Shown here in pieces: positions 8,767 to 50,162 of a stretch of DNA of 64,000 nt (within the stretch, counting starts at the first letter, position 1; every line of letters starts with the position of its first letter). A program made the position numbers and the translations under genes. The stretch covers positions 806,001 through 870,000 of the forward strand of contig NZ_FOZK01000002.1 of the NCBI RefSeq assembly GCF_900114435.1. The letters run 5' to 3'. The notes beneath the pieces are model-generated. The model saw only the letters and a list, made by a program, of their open reading frames with translations. It made no database searches and was not told where the DNA came from. The stretch is from Halomicrobium zhouii (GTDB taxonomy: Archaea > Halobacteriota > Halobacteria > Halobacteriales > Haloarculaceae).

Positions 8767-8954
8767 GATGGGCTAACATCTCTCGTTTGTCCGCTTCTAA
8801 CGTCACGAGTCGGCTCGTTTATACGTGACTCATTCCAATTTAGCCACAGACAGGGGAAAGAAAGTAGATTAGCCTTGTACGGACTGAAAGTGAAAGTAAA
8901 CGGGGAATGCCATTAATAAGATACAGTCGATGTATATGTGGGGATTGATGGAAT

Positions 8955-10784
8955 TCAACTATCGTACTGAATTGGAACCTTCTTTTCTGCGAGATAAGAT
9001 TTCATCTCACTTTCCATCCTTCTATGGACTTCATCGAAAACAACCCGATTTGAATGGTCAAATTCGAGCATAAATTGACTTCCCGCTCCTCTATAGGGTG
9101 TTCTGTAGGTATCTCCCTCATATTCAAAGACTCCCCCTTGGCCAGAACCCATCTCTTTGTAATTCTCCGGAATTTCTTCATCCGAAGCCCAGTGACATTT
9201 TACAGTAAGGCTTTGTTCCTTTCCTTCTAGCCAGTAGCGCCTAATACACGTGCTACGCAAATCTCTCAGATTATCGCGATCGACGACGACCAAGAGAAAG
9301 TTGGTTTGAGAGGGGATCAAAATCTCAGAAAGGGCTGGGAAGTTAGATTTTGCTAGGTTGTTATATTCTTTGTAATAGTTTGTGTAGTATGTTTGGATAT
9401 TCTCAAATATCGATTCGTCAGAGTAGAATTCGAGGATGTTGGAGACGTCACTTCCCGGATCCATCCGATCCCGGTCATTATATGGTTTTTCGATAAAGTC
9501 AACTGACGACTCTACTAATGCGTTAATCATCCTCTCCAACACCTCTTGTTCGTAATCCTCTGCTATGATCCGGTGAAGGGGTGGGTCAATTTCTGCTTCT
9601 TCTGTCCTCTGTTGGGCGATGTCGTGAGCATGATCATAACGGTCGTCTGACTCCCCCTCTAGGAAACCGTCTATAACAATATGAACATCACTAACATTGC
9701 GATCCTGGAAGATCCCCTTACTTTCCTCTGATAACCAAAACTGAAGATATCGGTAGTATCCCTCTCTAATTTCGTCAACGCTGTATCTTTCCTTTTCCTC
9801 AAGCCCGAGTAATGCTGAGAACCGACTAATGAAGGGATATATGTACTCTATCGCCAGAAACGGACAAGATGAGTAGTCAAAATTGTACTCATCAAACAAG
9901 TCGGGTACACGGTGATCCAATGCATTATATGCGAATCCCTTGGGGTCCCTTCTTAGTGGATTATCTGTTGGATTTCCAGACATCCGATTAGCTCCTAACT
10001 TGTGAATTTCGTCCCAATCTGAATCAATGTCCCTAATCTGCGCATCATTTTCATCATCCTCGATTGGATAAAGAGTATAACTCAACTCATCCTCTTCGTA
10101 AATTATATTTCCAAAACCAAATTTCCAGATTCTTGGATAGAGTTGTTCTTTAACGATCTCGAAGTCGGAATCCAGAAGAGAGTGGTATTTATCCAAGAAG
10201 GTATGGATATCGCGGAACTCAGGCCTCTGCTTTCCAATCGTGGGATTTGAACGACGCTTGAGTTTTTGGTATTTCTCTAAAATATCGTTCCGCTTCCTCG
10301 TCCGGTCTGCAATGTCTCTCCAATCTTCAACGTAGTCTTCTGTGCTATCTGAGATTACGTTCTCCACTGGAAAGTGGATAGTCTTATAGTCCTGATTATG
10401 GAGATCCTCATTCTCGAACCACTCTACAGTAATATTCTTCCAGTAGGCCCGCTCGTTCTGGACATCCACTGCTATAATTAGAAATGGTTCACCGCAGGCA
10501 TAGCAATAGGAGAGATGCCTTGTTTCCATTTGCTTTTTTGGCGTCTCTATATGGTCATCTGGGAGCTTTTTGACCTGAATGATTAACCGGCCTATTGGTG
10601 AATTATCCTCGTCAACCATTTCCAAAATTCCGTCATGGTTGGGGGCTTTATCGCGAGAATCGATAGACGACTTCACAGAATCCGCTAGGATGATATTTAA
10701 AACGTCAACAGCATCGTGCTCATGTTTATCTGATTCTGGATAGGGTGCCGGTTTAACCCTGTCATCCTCCCCTTCGTTAGCCAT
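8955..10784 (-). CDS. DUF4365-type nuclease-like protein, candidate defence gene
   Basis: This is a 609-residue protein. Residues about 22-120 resemble DUF4365, a PD-(D/E)XK-type fold: DGILEMVD (acidic strand), then GRLIIQVKKL, giving the Glu and Gln-x-Lys pattern, then ACGEPFLIIAVD. The remaining 480 residues are an uncharacterised helical region without membrane segments. DUF4365 domains occur in restriction-like and other anti-phage proteins, so a defence role is plausible but inferred. The gene is markedly AT-richer than the core genome, stands alone and looks horizontally acquired. A non-nuclease role in mobile DNA cannot be excluded. Confidence 0.65.
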   Translation of the reverse strand: MANEGEDDRVKPAPYPESDKHEHDAVDVLNIILADSVKSSIDSRDKAPNHDGILEMVDEDNSPIGRLIIQVKKLPDDHIETPKKQMETRHLSYCYACGEPFLIIAVDVQNERAYWKNITVEWFENEDLHNQDYKTIHFPVENVISDSTEDYVEDWRDIADRTRKRNDILEKYQKLKRRSNPTIGKQRPEFRDIHTFLDKYHSLLDSDFEIVKEQLYPRIWKFGFGNIIYEEDELSYTLYPIEDDENDAQIRDIDSDWDEIHKLGANRMSGNPTDNPLRRDPKGFAYNALDHRVPDLFDEYNFDYSSCPFLAIEYIYPFISRFSALLGLEEKERYSVDEIREGYYRYLQFWLSEESKGIFQDRNVSDVHIVIDGFLEGESDDRYDHAHDIAQQRTEEAEIDPPLHRIIAEDYEQEVLERMINALVESSVDFIEKPYNDRDRMDPGSDVSNILEFYSDESIFENIQTYYTNYYKEYNNLAKSNFPALSEILIPSQTNFLLVVVDRDNLRDLRSTCIRRYWLEGKEQSLTVKCHWASDEEIPENYKEMGSGQGGVFEYEGDTYRTPYRGAGSQFMLEFDHSNRVVFDEVHRRMESEMKSYLAEKKVPIQYDS

Positions 10785-11457: not shown

Positions 11458-11682
11458 TCACCCCAAAGTGGAAGCATCTCTTAATTTACCCCTCACTCGG
11501 AGAATTTCGATGGCAGTCACTAATGCTGCAACAAATGCTATCAATATTTCATAGAGTGGCGTGCGCGTATTGAGCATCTCTAAAATAGGGGGCGCTGCGC
11601 CGATAGCGAATATTGCCAACGGAAAAACTATTAGAACTTCTATGTTTACGTGTTTGAACCCTTCCTTGATGTCTGAGAGCAT
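11458..11682 (-). CDS. small two-helix membrane protein
   Basis: A 74-residue protein with two hydrophobic segments (about residues 14-34 and 44-62) and a short basic C-terminus (RVRGKLRDAS). The predicted location is the cell membrane. It is AT-richer than the core genome and has no partner gene in an obvious operon. I do not recognise it. Confidence 0.55.
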   Translation of the reverse strand: MLSDIKEGFKHVNIEVLIVFPLAIFAIGAAPPILEMLNTRTPLYEILIAFVAALVTAIEILRVRGKLRDASTLG

Positions 11683-11815
11683 GTACTAAACCAATAATCG
11701 CACTCCATATTAATTCACTATCTGGACACAAAGGGTCAGTATTTGTTCGCTGGATACACTCTCTCTATTCAGCAGGCCGTTTATGTCTCCTCCTAAGAGC
11801 TTAAACAGAGCCGCT

Positions 11816-44979: not shown

Positions 44980-46095
44980 TCAGAAGTACTCGACGAGCCG
45001 CTCGGCGGCCTCGTCCACCGTCGGCGTCACGAGCGCGAAGCGGATCCACTCCCGGCGCGACTCGCCGAAGGCCTCGCCGGGCATCCCGGCGACGCCGGCC
45101 TCGTCGACCAGTTCGAAGACGTTCTCGAAGGTGCCCGGGAACCCCTCGAAGCGGCCCATCACGTAGAACCCGCCTTCGGGGCGGTCGTACTCGGCGCCGA
45201 CCGCGTCGAGGGCCTCACAGAACGTGTCGATTCGACCCTGGAGTCGGTCCCTGTTCTCCGCGTAGTAGTCCGGTCCGGTCGTCTCCAGTGCCCTGTAAAC
45301 GGCGTACTGGGCCGGCCGCGACCCGGTCACGTTGACGATCATGTGACGAGTGCGGGCCCGCTCCAGCAGTTCGCCGGTCGGCCCGTCCGCCGGCGGGAAG
45401 ACGGCGTAGCCCACCCGGAAGCCCGTGATGGCCATCGACTTCGAGAAGGCGTTCGTCGCGACGACGTTGGGCGAGTCGAACTGCAGCGCCGAGGCGAACC
45501 GGCCGGTGTAGTCGAAGTGGTCGTACACCTCGTCGCTGATCAGCAGCGCGTCGTTCTCCTCGGCGATGGCGACGAACTCGGCCATCGCCGCCTCGTCGTA
45601 CACCGCACCGGTGGGGTTGTTGGGCGAGTTGACGACGACGACCGCCGTCTCCTCGCTCGCGGCCTCGCGCACCCGCTCGGGGGTCAGGTGGCCATCGTCG
45701 TCGACCGGGACGAAGCCGACGTCGGCCCCGACGAAGTTCGCCCGCCCAGCGTAGTAGGGGTAGACCGGGTCCGCAAGCAGTATCTCGTCGCCGGAGAAGC
45801 GTTCGAGTCCGCCGACCATCGCGAGGTGGTTCGCCTCGCCAGCGCCGTTGGTGACGACGATGCAGTCGCGGTCGACGCCGCGTCGCTCGGCGATCTCGGT
45901 CCGTAACTCCGGCAGTCCGGCGCTCGCGGTGTACTGGAACTCGTCGGCGCCCAGGTCGGCGTACTCGCGGAGTCCCTCACGTAGCCCCTCCGGCGGGTCC
46001 CAGTCGGGACTCCCCGACACCATGTCGACGACGTCCCGGTCGGCGCGCCGCGCGTACTGGATGACGCGGTAGAACTGCGGCGTCTCGTAGTCCAT
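44980..46095 (-). CDS. class I/II pyridoxal-phosphate aminotransferase
   Basis: The protein has 371 residues from ATG 46095; a further upstream ATG (46173) would add a proline-rich leader. It has the fold-type I signatures GAGEANHLAMVGGL (PLP phosphate), VVVNSPNNPTGAVYDEA, ISDEVYDHFDYTG and NAFSKSMAITGFRVGY with the PLP Lys in SKS. It transfers an amino group between an amino acid and a 2-oxo acid; the substrate is not evident. It lies upstream of nothing obviously in the same pathway. Confidence 0.9.
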   Translation of the reverse strand: MDYETPQFYRVIQYARRADRDVVDMVSGSPDWDPPEGLREGLREYADLGADEFQYTASAGLPELRTEIAERRGVDRDCIVVTNGAGEANHLAMVGGLERFSGDEILLADPVYPYYAGRANFVGADVGFVPVDDDGHLTPERVREAASEETAVVVVNSPNNPTGAVYDEAAMAEFVAIAEENDALLISDEVYDHFDYTGRFASALQFDSPNVVATNAFSKSMAITGFRVGYAVFPPADGPTGELLERARTRHMIVNVTGSRPAQYAVYRALETTGPDYYAENRDRLQGRIDTFCEALDAVGAEYDRPEGGFYVMGRFEGFPGTFENVFELVDEAGVAGMPGEAFGESRREWIRFALVTPTVDEAAERLVEYF

Positions 46096-46185
46096 GTCTC
46101 CCGGGTCGGGACAGTCGGTCTTCGGTGTTGCGGTGGCCCACACGCCTCGGCCATCCGGTGGCCGAACGTACACGTCCGGGCGGGG

Positions 46186-46452
46186 CTAGCGACTGAAGAC
46201 GACGACGTCGTTGTCCTGAATCGCGACCGTGTAGCCGCAGTACTCGAACGCGACGGTGCCGACGCGCTCCTCACGGAAGATCTGGTCGAGTGCGTCGGGG
46301 TCGACAGCGTCGTAGAGGGGCGGGAGGTCGCCCGGATCCGTCTCTTCGGCGTCGGCGACCGCTTCCGCGACCGCCACGCTCGGGAGCACGTCCTGAATCG
46401 ACACGACGGTGGTGATTTCAGCGCGTTCGTCGGGACTCACTTTCGACTCCAT
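46186..46452 (-). CDS. HalOD1 output domain protein
   Basis: The 88-residue protein consists of a HalOD1 domain: VVSIQDVLPSVAVAEAVADA, then DLPPLYDAVDPDALDQIFRE and VAFEYCGYTVAIQDNDVVVF. HalOD1 is a small haloarchaeal signalling output domain, often with receiver domains but also alone as here. The signalling partner is unknown. It is about 90 bases upstream of the aminotransferase in the same orientation. Confidence 0.85.
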   Translation of the reverse strand: MESKVSPDERAEITTVVSIQDVLPSVAVAEAVADAEETDPGDLPPLYDAVDPDALDQIFREERVGTVAFEYCGYTVAIQDNDVVVFSR

Positions 46453-46722
46453 GGTGTCCTCGCGGGAAAAGACCGGATATCGTTCACCTTCGTTTAAACG
46501 GCGACGTCGGCGATATCTAGGGCCGGGTAGAAGTTCACTGAGATGGCGGTACAGCGGCCGAATCGGTCGTTATCAATTCCAAAAACGACTTCCGTGAACG
46601 GTAGTCCGCCGTATCCGGTGGTTCGTCGGCGGTCGGGCTGGGAGTGGCCCCTCGACGGCGGCCGGACCGAAACCGGGCACGGTTGGATCGAACTTTTGGC
46701 GCTGCCAGTCCAGTCTTCGGGC

Positions 46723-46884
46723 ATGAGCGAGTCCGAGGCGACGATCGAGGAGCGCGTGGGTGAGGTGTTGCGGGAGCGCGGGGAGACGGTCGCCGTCGCA
46801 GAATCGTGTACTGGATGCCCGAGAGGATCGCTCCTGGCAGACGTCTTTCATGGGAAACATCTGTCCTTATATCAGCGGGATTGA
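46723..46884 (+). pseudogene. truncated 5' copy of cinA
   Basis: ATG 46723 begins a protein closely matching the N-terminus of CinA at 48007 (MSESEATIEERVGEVLRERG, then ETVAVAESCTG). Similarity ends after about 31 residues at 46815, and the last 22 residues (ending HGKHLSLYQRD) are foreign. The promoter region from 46683 is also shared. The full family needs about 160 residues, so this copy is not functional. The two copies differ at roughly 23 of 133 positions. Confidence 0.75.
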
Positions 46885-47028
46885 GATATCTAAGAGTATC
46901 TCGATGGTCTTGAGCAAAACGTAACCGAGAACGAGCACTTGGAACGCTTGAATCATCCAGTTCACTAGCTTATTGTCGGTTCTATTAGCGCCACTGACAT
47001 CTCCGAATCGGAGGTCATCGTCTGTCAT
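46867..47028 (-). CDS. 53-residue single-span membrane protein of the Mrr cassette
   Basis: ATG 47028 to TAA 46867-46869 encodes 53 residues: an acidic, polar N-terminus (MTDDDLRFGDVSGANRTDNK) and one membrane span at about residues 24-45 (WMIQAFQVLVLGYVLLKTIE). The start overlaps the nuclease stop in an ATGA arrangement, so it is the last gene of the cassette operon. Its role with the nuclease is unknown. Confidence 0.6.
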   Translation of the reverse strand: MTDDDLRFGDVSGANRTDNKLVNWMIQAFQVLVLGYVLLKTIEILLDISIPLI

Positions 47029-47480
47029 TGTTGCTTCGTTTTGGGTTTGCCGTCAGCGTACCATTGCAGGATCTCATGCGCATCGTATTTGTGGACAATA
47101 CGGACAAGATCGTCTCCGTCAATACAGTTCACATCAAGTCGCTCCGCTAGTTCCTCTGCTGATCGAGTAAAGGAGCTCGTGGTAACGATGGTAACGCCGT
47201 TCACATCGCTCCACTGCTGACGGAGGGCGGAATATTGCTGGACATTATCGCTTGAAACCTTGTTTCCCTCTGCGTATCGTTTGCACTGGACAGCTGTCTT
47301 TCCGCCACCAGTAGGAGGCTGTCCAATTACGTCAAGACCTTTGTCAGGGCCGGCGTCCATCACCTCAGTCGTCCACCCTTGACGCTCTTGCCACACATCT
47401 GCGATGAACTGTTCGAAGTGTCTTGGGGGGAGAGCCCGAAGCGTTGCTAGTATCTCAGATGAGGCCAAAGTCACCACCAC
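47025..47480 (-). CDS. Mrr-type restriction endonuclease
   Basis: This 151-residue protein has the core of a Mrr-cat PD-(D/E)XK nuclease: FEQFIADVWQERQGWTTEVM, GPDKGLDVIGQ (catalytic Asp) and KTAVQCKRY (the Gln-x-Lys motif), then VTIVTTSSFTRSAEELAERL. Mrr enzymes cleave foreign, often modified DNA. The short length is typical of the catalytic domain alone. It overlaps the HTH gene upstream by 26 bases and the membrane gene downstream by four. A defence function is inferred. Confidence 0.82.
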   Translation of the reverse strand: MVVTLASSEILATLRALPPRHFEQFIADVWQERQGWTTEVMDAGPDKGLDVIGQPPTGGGKTAVQCKRYAEGNKVSSDNVQQYSALRQQWSDVNGVTIVTTSSFTRSAEELAERLDVNCIDGDDLVRIVHKYDAHEILQWYADGKPKTKQQ

Positions 47481-47643
47481 TCTTGTTCCAATCCGGGCGA
47501 TATTCGTTGAGTGTTTCCTTGACGTAACTCTCCGAACAATCGCAATTGGCCGCGATCTGTTTTGGATTAGTTGTCATTATGTCATACTGCTCAAGGATAC
47601 AATCTTGTAACTTGGTCGTGTCGCCGTCTCTACCGCCTAACAT
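47455..47643 (-). CDS. small HTH protein of the Mrr cassette
   Basis: The 62-residue protein starts at ATG 47643. The segment NPKQIAANCDCSESYVKETL is a helix-turn-helix that could bind DNA. Its 3' end overlaps the start of the nuclease gene by 26 bases, so it is the first gene of a three-gene operon. It may regulate the operon or guide the nuclease; neither can be read from sequence. Confidence 0.65.
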   Translation of the reverse strand: MLGGRDGDTTKLQDCILEQYDIMTTNPKQIAANCDCSESYVKETLNEYRPDWNKSGGDFGLI

Positions 47644-47789
47644 GGAATGGTCCTAGGTACATGCTAACAAAAATGTATTGGGTAGATAAGCAATCGATCC
47701 ACACCGCCCAGTAGAGATATGTGACATTACCCTTTTGAGATGGGGTTCAAAGCGTCACCAATTCGGCCGTCCTTTCCATCTTTCCACAA

Positions 47790-47935
47790 CTACTCATGAT
47801 GGTGGATATCCACCTCAGGAGGTTTGAAGGGATCATCGTTATAGGCTTGAAGGAAATCGGGCTACCAGCACGTTCACCGCCGGCTGTGACATGGTGATCC
47901 GGGTGGTCGTTGGCAGTCGGGTAGAGAGCGATCGG
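47790..47935 (-). pseudogene. degraded C-terminal gene fragment
   Basis: Two minus-strand frames together give a protein-like end: NDHPDHHVTAGGERAGSPIS, then after a one-base shift AYNDDPFKPPEVDIHHHE and a TAG stop at 47790-47792. The split needs one missing base. It is probably the remains of a gene at the cassette edge; the family is not recognised. Confidence 0.35.
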
Positions 47936-48006
47936 CCTTCCGACGGAGCTCCTGATCCGGACAACATTGGATCGAACTTTTGGCGCTGCCAGTCTACCGT
48001 CCGGAC

Positions 48007-48516
48007 ATGAGCGAGTCAGAAGCGCCGGCCGAGGAACGAGTGGGCGAGGCGCTCCGCGAGCGCGGCGAGACGGTCGCCGTGGCCGAGTCGTGTACGGGGG
48101 GGCTCATCGGGTCGCTCTTGACCGACGTCCCGGGGTCGAGCGACTACTTCGACCGGTCGGTGGCGACCTACTCCTACGACGCCAAACGGGACGTGCTCGC
48201 GGTTTCCCGGGAGGCTCTCGACGGCCACGGCGCGGTGAGCGAACCAGTGGCCAGGGAGATGGCGCGGGCGGTTCGGGACACTGCGGATACGACGTGGGGC
48301 GTGGCGACGACGGGTGTCGCCGGGCCCACCGGCGGCAGCGAGGAGACGCCGGTCGGGACGGCCTACATCGGCGTGGCGTACGCGGCGCCGTGGGGGACGG
48401 GCGACTCCGAAACGACCGTCGAGCGCTACGAGTTCGACGGCGACAGGCAGACGGTCAAGCAACGGGTCGCCGAGCAGGCGCTGTCGGACCTGCTCGACGC
48501 CGTCGAAGCCCGGTGA
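48007..48516 (+). CDS. cinA: CinA C-terminal domain protein (NMN deamidase family)
   Basis: A 169-residue protein from ATG 48007 with the CinA/PncC fold: VAVAESCTGGLIGSLLTDVP, then SYDAKRDVLAVSREALDGHG, VSEPVAREMARAVRDTADTT and TGVAGPTGGSEETPVGTAYI. Family members deamidate nicotinamide mononucleotide in pyridine-nucleotide recycling. This copy is complete, in contrast to the truncated copy at 46723. Confidence 0.88.
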   Translation: MSESEAPAEERVGEALRERGETVAVAESCTGGLIGSLLTDVPGSSDYFDRSVATYSYDAKRDVLAVSREALDGHGAVSEPVAREMARAVRDTADTTWGVATTGVAGPTGGSEETPVGTAYIGVAYAAPWGTGDSETTVERYEFDGDRQTVKQRVAEQALSDLLDAVEAR

Positions 48517-48546
48517 CGCCGTCGTTCGACCGCAAACCAGTGGCGC

Positions 48547-49308
48547 TCAGTACACCTTCACGTCGTCGAACCGGCCGCCGTAGGCGACGTGGTCCGGGTG
48601 GGTGGCCGCAGTGCCCTGGAGCATGACGCGGTCGAACTTCGACCACGTGTTCTCGTAGCCGAGGTGGCAAAACTCCAGCCCGCAGCGGAGCGCGTGGAGC
48701 GGGCCGTTCCGGTGGAAGAGACGCCGTGGTTCGCCGTCGCGCAGGGCGCCGACGAACGCCGTCTCGTCGGTCAGCGGTCGGTCGAAACTGACCCACGCCT
48801 CGCCGACGGTCCCCCGGAGGTGGGCGTACGACGACGTGAACGTCGGGAGGCCGATCGACCGCGCCAGCTCTCGTGCGCGTTCGTTGTGGTGGGGCAGGTG
48901 CTTGGGGTTGTACACCTCGAGGCCGTGGATGCGGTCCTCGTACCGGCGGATCTGGTCCTCGGTGAGGCTCACCGTGAGAAACTCCGGGTGGGGGACCAGC
49001 ACCGCGGCGTCCTGCCGGTCGAGTTCCGCCATCGTCCCCTCGAGCGTGAGAAAGTCCGGAACGGGGTCGTCGAGGCCGAGCGCGAGGACGTGCCGGCGCT
49101 GTTGCCAGCTACCGGTGAACAGCTCCCGGGCCGGGACCACCGTCAACTCGTCGTCGGAGAAGCGCTCGGCGCGCTCCCGGACGTCGGGTAGCCGCGTGAA
49201 GTGCGGCGCGTAGACGAGCGCGTCCAGGCCACGCGCCTTGGCGCGCCGGACGACGGCCTCGTCCAGGACCTTCACGTGCATGTCGACCGCGAACCCCTCG
49301 TCAGTCAC
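48547..49308 (-). CDS. PHP domain phosphoesterase-like protein
   Basis: The protein has about 253 residues from GTG 49308 (VTDEGFAVDMHVKVLDEAVV). It resembles the PHP fold: DMHVKVLDEAVVRRAKARGL, LDALVYAPHFTRLPDVRE, ELFTGSWQQRRHVLALGLDD and the later AAVLVPHPEFLTVSLTEDQI and GLPTFTSSYAHLRGTVGEAW. The first His pair is reduced to DMHVK. PHP proteins hydrolyse phosphates using metals; the substrate is unknown. An upstream start at 49368 is possible but weaker. Confidence 0.75.
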   Translation of the reverse strand: MTDEGFAVDMHVKVLDEAVVRRAKARGLDALVYAPHFTRLPDVRERAERFSDDELTVVPARELFTGSWQQRRHVLALGLDDPVPDFLTLEGTMAELDRQDAAVLVPHPEFLTVSLTEDQIRRYEDRIHGLEVYNPKHLPHHNERARELARSIGLPTFTSSYAHLRGTVGEAWVSFDRPLTDETAFVGALRDGEPRRLFHRNGPLHALRCGLEFCHLGYENTWSKFDRVMLQGTAATHPDHVAYGGRFDDVKVY

Positions 49309-49595
49309 GCCCACACGTACTGCCAGCCCGGTGTTATGGATTTCTATGCGCCGTCGGCCCGCTACCACAGACTGTTGTCAGTCGAGAGGACTATAATGGT
49401 AACAATTCTGTCTCTATCGGAGAATCGAGAGGGGCGGTCACGTCACGGGGTTTGGGCCGGGAAGATATTAAATAATTGGAGCGTTTGTAGGATTTTTATC
49501 GCTATCAGTGCTACATCTGGTAGCGTTCGGCCCGGACGACGCGCCTCCGTGCGCGGATGACATCCCGGCCCGAATAGCTGCGGTTGTCTCAGCCC

Positions 49596-50162
49596 ATGAT
49601 TGGATACTACGCATTCTGCCACAGGAGTGGCGCACCGCTCTCCGAGCCAACTCACTACGACGAGGACGGACGTGCCTGGCGGTCGGTGCTCTCCGGCGAC
49701 GGCGACGACGACGATAGACGGGTCGGTGAGCTAACCAACGGGGCGGTCCGTTCCACGCGGCAGGCGCTCGTCACGTACTTTCGCAGGACGCACCGCCGTC
49801 ACTGCGAGTTCGACGCGGAACTGTACAGGCGGGCGGCGCTCGCCATCTCGCGGCTCAAACGCGCTGCAACTGGCGAGCAGGCGGCCGACCGGTACGTCTG
49901 GTACGCCCTCCAGCACCGGTTCGACGAACTCGGCTACGACGTCCAGTGGATGCACGCCCACGCGGGACTCCGCTGTCCAGGCTGTCACGGTCGGCTGAAG
50001 TTCGACGACGACCACGACGGCGTCGTCCACGCCGAGTGCGGCACGAACTGTGACGGCACGACCGACGACCAGATGGCGCGGATCCGTGAGACCGTCGCGT
50101 CGCTGTACACGGCGGCCTTCGACGGATCCGCCGCCCACCCCGAGGAGGTACTCCAGTTCTGA
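49596..50162 (+). CDS. zinc-ribbon-containing hypothetical protein
   Basis: The 188-residue protein starts at ATG 49596 (MIGYYAFCHRSGAPLSEPTH) or four codons upstream. A helical middle region is followed by a zinc ribbon around residues 120-150 (CPGCHGRLKFDDDHDG, then HAECGTNCDG). An AT-rich promoter area with GATATTAAATAATT lies at about 49465-49480. It is acidic and soluble. Function is unknown. Confidence 0.65.
   Translation: MIGYYAFCHRSGAPLSEPTHYDEDGRAWRSVLSGDGDDDDRRVGELTNGAVRSTRQALVTYFRRTHRRHCEFDAELYRRAALAISRLKRAATGEQAADRYVWYALQHRFDELGYDVQWMHAHAGLRCPGCHGRLKFDDDHDGVVHAECGTNCDGTTDDQMARIRETVASLYTAAFDGSAAHPEEVLQF

Follow-up and report, generated by a model that had tools for sequence, protein, structure and literature searches.

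The cinA gene of Halomicrobium zhouii (genome 4.25 Mb) has received a new promoter and its first 30 codons from a small foreign segment, leaving its native start on the far side of an insert that holds three overlapping genes. Within the window, meaning the whole 64,000-nucleotide stretch of DNA analyzed, we give somewhat better than an even chance to the following explanation as a whole: a circular segment of ∼1.28 kb entered cinA through a single exchange, and it would represent a relic or satellite resembling a cis-mobilizable element (CIME), with probable provirus-borne defense cargo. That cargo, a helix-turn-helix (HTH) protein, an Mrr-type nuclease, and a small membrane protein, is a conserved and uncatalogued unit carried by haloarchaeal virus-like elements.

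Structure of the cinA Locus

The start of cinA lies in a direct repeat (46673-46845 and 47957-48129; 78% identity over 173 nt, spacing 1284). In the block 46683-46811 versus 47967-48095, 107 of 129 positions are identical; 11 of the 16 coding mismatches, among 22 in all, fall at third codon positions, and the longest runs common to both starts measure 28 bp (in the promoter region), 14, 12, and 8 bp. The left copy (46683..46811, plus strand) holds the promoter region, an ATG at 46723, and codons 1-30 of the native start, cut off from the gene body. The right copy (47967..48095, plus strand) holds a foreign cinA promoter and codons 1-30, with an ATG at 48007, and restores the gene: its coding part (48007-48095) runs on into the native body (48096..48516, plus strand) to give an intact chimeric gene of 169 codons, the product of which belongs to the CinA C-terminal (PncC amidase) family (Pfam CinA, E = 2.1e-55). 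An 8-bp block, TCGTGTAC, closes both copies, at 46804..46811 on the left (plus strand; an attL-like junction) and at 48088-48095 on the right.

The insert is AT-rich (GC 0.45-0.55, surroundings 0.65-0.73) and contains three overlapping open reading frames, all on the minus strand. The first (47455..47643) encodes the small HTH protein of 62 aa, found at all six loci of the trio, with the conserved residues CDCS..Y..TLNE; the second (47025..47480) begins with GTG and encodes the Mrr-type nuclease of 151 aa (Pfam Mrr_cat; conserved D50, Q65, C66, and K67); and the third (46867..47028) encodes a protein of 53 aa with an N-terminal DDDLRFGDV motif and one hydrophobic, presumably membrane-spanning, stretch. 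An earlier sequence-only reading had described a cinA start present twice with its promoter, and an AT-rich insert with overlapping HTH, Mrr, and 53-residue membrane frames, and both descriptions are borne out here. Between the HTH start and the cinA-like sequence is a foreign non-coding spacer (47644..47896) that matches neither G006, the nearest related genome, nor any of the other trio loci.

The homology to cinA extends past the 129-base block on both sides, further than that reading had drawn it. Ahead of the right copy, 47897..47966 (plus strand) aligns locally with the cinA upstream region of G006 at a score reached by 0 of 2000 shuffles (3 of 2000 shuffles were as good when it was aligned with the upstream region of the left copy), and is a foreign, diverged upstream region brought by the insert. 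Behind the left copy, 46812..46847 (plus strand) resembles cinA codons 31-42 in exact register, with 22 of 36 positions identical and a chance probability of about 1.6e-5 judged from the rest of the window. If circularized, the carried pieces would form one diverged stretch of cinA from about -110 to codon 42, in which the foreign tail at 46812 would directly follow 48095. The part that restores the gene has diverged as coding sequence does and looks selected, whereas the non-restoring part has decayed, a division that would be expected of repeated integration cycles.

An Empty Site and the Origin of Each Copy

G006, which is of the same genus as Halomicrobium zhouii and the nearest of 59 related genomes, lacks the insert: 45800-46844 and 47897-50000 align to one continuous locus at 93-94% identity, overlapping over the cinA start, and the left flank with the left copy is contiguous there with the right flank and the cinA body. 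It is the only close genome with such an empty site, which the sequence-only reading had named as the thing to look for among relatives; the opposite finding, a duplication fixed in the close relatives, did not materialize, six congeners being without it. Left of the insert, as far as about 46811, each 100 bases differ from G006 by 1-13%; on the right side, 50-base bins differ by 12-40% until about 48150, after which the divergence is mostly 4-10% over the rest of cinA and about 2% downstream.

Site by site, the 129-base block differs from the empty site at 13 positions in the left copy and at 20 in the right. Up to the end of TCGTGTAC, there are 14 sites where only the left copy agrees with G006 and 7 where only the right copy does; past it (46812-46847), the balance flips to about 10 versus 2 in favor of the right copy. 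The block resembles an att core in being identical at both ends and in marking the switch of origin. On this pattern, the left copy is native up to TCGTGTAC and foreign after it, and the right copy foreign before it and native after; because the pattern reverses at the block, we infer one reciprocal exchange, which left the full-length chimeric cinA. Contrary to this explanation, the simple two-part pattern is broken by an unexplained cluster of five sites in codons 4-8 (46730-46745 versus 48014-48029), where the foreign start, not the native remnant, agrees with G006; changes private to the stranded remnant, or gene conversion over a short tract, could account for the cluster. The upstream regions of the other congeners do not align, and the source was therefore probably a near relative of Halomicrobium zhouii and G006.

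The trio in Other Genomes and Its Carriers

Searches by tblastn and profiles recovered the same trio, with order and overlaps kept, in five more genomes: Haloarcula amylovorans (G064), Halomicroarcula rubra (G080), Halosimplex carlsbadense (G127), G071, and G154. The search for the trio elsewhere that had been suggested from the sequence alone thus found it recurring as a unit, and the contrary outcome, three genes that never meet again, did not arise. The identities for these five loci are 68-76% for Mrr, 48-70% for the HTH protein, and 30-51% for the membrane protein, and at none of them does the trio adjoin cinA. The nine residues DDDLRFGDV near the N-terminus are identical in all six membrane proteins, and among 391 genomes of the class this family occurs only alongside the tight Mrr, plus one HTH-plus-membrane locus in G419. 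Estimates of dN/dS are 0.03-0.13 for most estimable HTH and Mrr pairs (0.25 for the HTH pair G071-G127) and 0.19-0.34 for the membrane protein, with some pairs saturated. Phage records held no close relative of the Mrr protein, its plasmid relatives were all below 60% identity (best about 43%), and a scan of genome contigs returned only records of the already known trio loci plus one weak unrelated match.

In Halosimplex carlsbadense, the trio lies at the edge of an element of ∼15.8 kb (L067:9512 to L133:5406) that also contains a D5-type primase, two tyrosine integrases, and a protein 27% identical to one from a Halorubrum spindle-shaped virus. Congeners share its left flank to about L067:9511, inside a conserved 111-aa gene, the last ∼28 codons of which have been swapped for a diverged version still ending in DPDDRRYQF; the native gene end is found 15.8 kb away at L133:5407-5521, and the element ends share the core ACGACGAGTA. 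By these features, the element is a case of target-gene end restoration, at the 3′ end. In Halomicroarcula rubra, the trio is inside an element of ∼30 kb (L065:3482 to G080:C32:192379), which has tRNA-Pro at one boundary and a 19-bp copy of the tRNA-Pro 3′ end at the other. The element encodes a protein with 31% identity to a His1 virus protein and also a cytosine DNA methyltransferase.

The trio of G064 and G071 is accompanied by a complete, inverted alkA-like gene of foreign origin that shares about 46% identity with the native family. The native alkA is disrupted in both genomes and persists as decayed pieces on both sides in G064 and as a 3′ piece in G071. These alkA loci, in two Haloarcula-group genomes, give a second example in which the replacement for a disrupted gene was carried in. 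The coordinates for this case, in which the carried gene is that of an alkA-like DNA glycosylase, are L064:9199-9290 and 11494-11685, and L063:10590-10725 and 8793-9401. In G154, the trio occupies a variable stretch of 5.1 kb beside a conserved gene read from its C-terminus as EF-2, and no clear att repeat was found at this locus. A sequence of ∼140 bp upstream of the trio in G154 (L066:8903-9039) is present many times across its genus and resembles a MITE or a small dispersed repeat.

Mode of Arrival at cinA

We propose that a foreign segment of ∼1.28 kb, most likely a circle at the time, recombined with cinA in a single reciprocal event at codons 28-30, within TCGTGTAC. The empty site and the switch of origin show that the segment brought with it a promoter and the first 30 codons from a related cinA, so that the gene was rebuilt as a chimera and the native start was stranded beyond the insert. 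The empty site, the reciprocal switch at the 8-bp block, and the in-register tail form the pattern that a circle would give. Such a layout suggests a site-specific integrative element with a target-gene end carried in its attP, and the cargo is one operon for an HTH regulator, an Mrr nuclease, and a small membrane protein. No recombinase frame is present in 46812-47966, and the Halomicrobium zhouii genome has only five integrase-like matches, none of them near cinA; since the insert holds no recombinase, it is most likely a satellite of a virus-like integrative element or a CIME-like relic of one, moved by an integrase that acted in trans or was later lost. The cinA locus and the Halosimplex carlsbadense element share a layout of restored gene end, about 190-250 bp, HTH>Mrr>TM, and stranded native end. 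In Halosimplex carlsbadense the rest of the element, with the integrases, lies between the trio and the stranded end, and all of this is missing at cinA, which favors a relic or satellite (the CIME situation). An exact match to the cinA promoter block was absent from viral contigs, and a plasmid search for the block returned only an ordinary cinA.

When the cinA start was surveyed across the class (391 genomes), a truncated duplicate was recognized only in Halomicrobium zhouii; other double cinA matches (five genomes of genus g21, G029, and G044), part of which were inspected, look like paralogues or fragmented assembly. Relatives of a site-specific integrative element or CIME usually, though not necessarily, use its target too. 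For want of a second case, cinA is not a common target, and a family of cinA-specific elements was rejected. The sequence-only reading, in which an element brings its own cinA 5′ end and replaces the native start, is upheld in part: the site pattern against G006 bears out the foreign promoter and start and the stranding of the native one, but a dedicated cinA-targeting element gains no support from an insert free of integrase or from the 391 class genomes, which gave no other cinA fragment. Quite unlikely, in our estimate, is the most far-reaching version, a minimal, recombinase-free archaeal element of ∼1.3 kb that uses a helper integrase, has the 5′ end of a housekeeping gene as its specific integration site, supplies the promoter and first 30 codons that rebuild this gene, and disseminates a new antiviral nuclease of three proteins with a link to the membrane.

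The main rival to integration of a circle is homologous import from an unsampled congener that has the trio ahead of its cinA. Its DNA would have recombined within cinA on the right, while the join on the left would be illegitimate, as in homology-facilitated illegitimate recombination. An insert that lacks an integrase fits this, as does a foreign cinA start closer to Halomicrobium zhouii and G006 than to other congeners (the upstream regions being unalignable), and the trio with an inverted foreign alkA in G071 and G064 is not a product of simple att exchange. However, both junctions fall at one and the same position in cinA and the left one is followed by an in-register foreign tail, which a random join would give only by coincidence, and an 8-bp identical block in 83%-identical sequence makes a poor substrate for homologous exchange. 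No donor genome for the import was found, and we hold this route to be rather doubtful. Tandem duplication of the cinA start with later capture of the trio is highly improbable: it would yield two directly oriented copies, as seen, but the copies differ at 22 of 129 positions with the left nearer to G006 than the right, the sequence upstream of the right copy is itself diverged, and the empty site has a single copy. Plain tandem duplication was rejected on the empty site and the origin switch together, in line with the case already made against it from the divergence of the copies.

Relation to Known Integrative Elements

Integration of a circle into cinA can be compared with several described systems. 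CIMEs are cis-mobilizable elements that have kept attL and attR and lost their integration and transfer genes (PMC5704250); the cinA insert is likewise bounded by att-like junctions around a restored gene and has no recombinase of its own, but it is archaeal and only about 1.28 kb long, and any accretion or mobilization by a relative would be hypothetical. Integrated mobile genetic elements of Thaumarchaeota that target protein genes do so in 3′-distal regions in 14 of 14 cases (PMC6563490). They too integrate within a coding gene, resupply the gene end, and use a short att, whereas the cinA insert resupplies a 5′ end with its promoter. The sequence-only reading was right that target-restoring integration has precedents at tRNA genes and at gene ends, and 5′-end targeting of protein genes is known as well, in streptococci, where integrative and conjugative elements target the 5′ ends of rbgA, ftsK, and ebfC and sometimes replace the promoter, leaving the N-terminus unchanged (PMC4701971). 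These share with the cinA insert a 5′-end target and a target-gene promoter that may be replaced, but they are conjugative and encode their own tyrosine integrase, and the cinA case involves about 30 foreign codons. Given the 3′ targets in Thaumarchaeota and the N-terminus kept in streptococci, replacement of a promoter and ∼30 codons in an archaeon would be an unusual variant, and the cinA locus offers a directly testable instance of 5′-end target-gene restoration in this domain. The defense hotspots of P2/P4 proviruses and satellites (PMC9122126) are similar in placing small, variable, defense-like cargo on integrated virus-like elements; the trio differs in being haloarchaeal, outside the known systems, and a candidate for defense only.

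Predicted Function of the trio

The Mrr protein matches Pfam Mrr_cat (PF04471) at E = 1.1e-21 (77.5 bits versus a cut-off of 21) and has the catalytic D..QxK pattern, with D50, Q65, and K67 invariant in all six proteins. The folds nearest to its model (pLDDT 86) are MspJI and AspBHI, and CRISPR ancillary nucleases are also similar. MspJI and AspBHI are endonucleases that cut modified DNA. The predicted trio nuclease shares with them the Mrr_cat core and, in its model, among solved structures, the closest fold, but at 151 aa it has no recognition domain and is linked instead to a separate HTH protein and a small membrane protein. Modeling of the HTH protein gave a small helical fold, for which a fold search returned no significant match, and a search by sequence found no solved relative of either the Mrr or the HTH protein. 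PADLOC had no system model covering the trio and returned only Mrr-domain matches to larger defense-family proteins, with none for the HTH or membrane protein.

The likeliest function of the trio is that of a small defense unit on virus-like elements, directed against competitors, with the HTH protein as regulator or DNA-binding subunit. The HTH protein probably controls or guides a modification-dependent nuclease core that the third protein holds at the membrane; if the trio blocks viruses, it would be a new small defense system of proviruses. A less probable but serious alternative is a unit for element maintenance or superinfection regulation, or one of toxin-antitoxin type with an HTH repressor, a nuclease toxin, and a membrane partner. 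Carriage by virus-like elements, a short overlapping operon headed by a small HTH gene, and a related HTH and membrane pair without the nuclease (L079) are compatible with that alternative; against it are the kinship of the fold to modification-dependent restriction enzymes, the invariant core D, Q, and K, and the pairing of the HTH with longer, membrane-fused Mrr proteins in other haloarchaea.

Variants of the arrangement were seen at several loci. The pair lacking the nuclease lies at L079:1432-1888. At L045 and L049, the HTH gene adjoins Mrr proteins with a hydrophobic, presumably membrane-spanning, end of their own, and at L094 an HTH protein with a hydrophobic end is found near an Mrr protein that is likewise hydrophobic-ended; these combinations of HTH with hydrophobic-ended Mrr suggest that the third protein of the trio may act as a membrane anchor.
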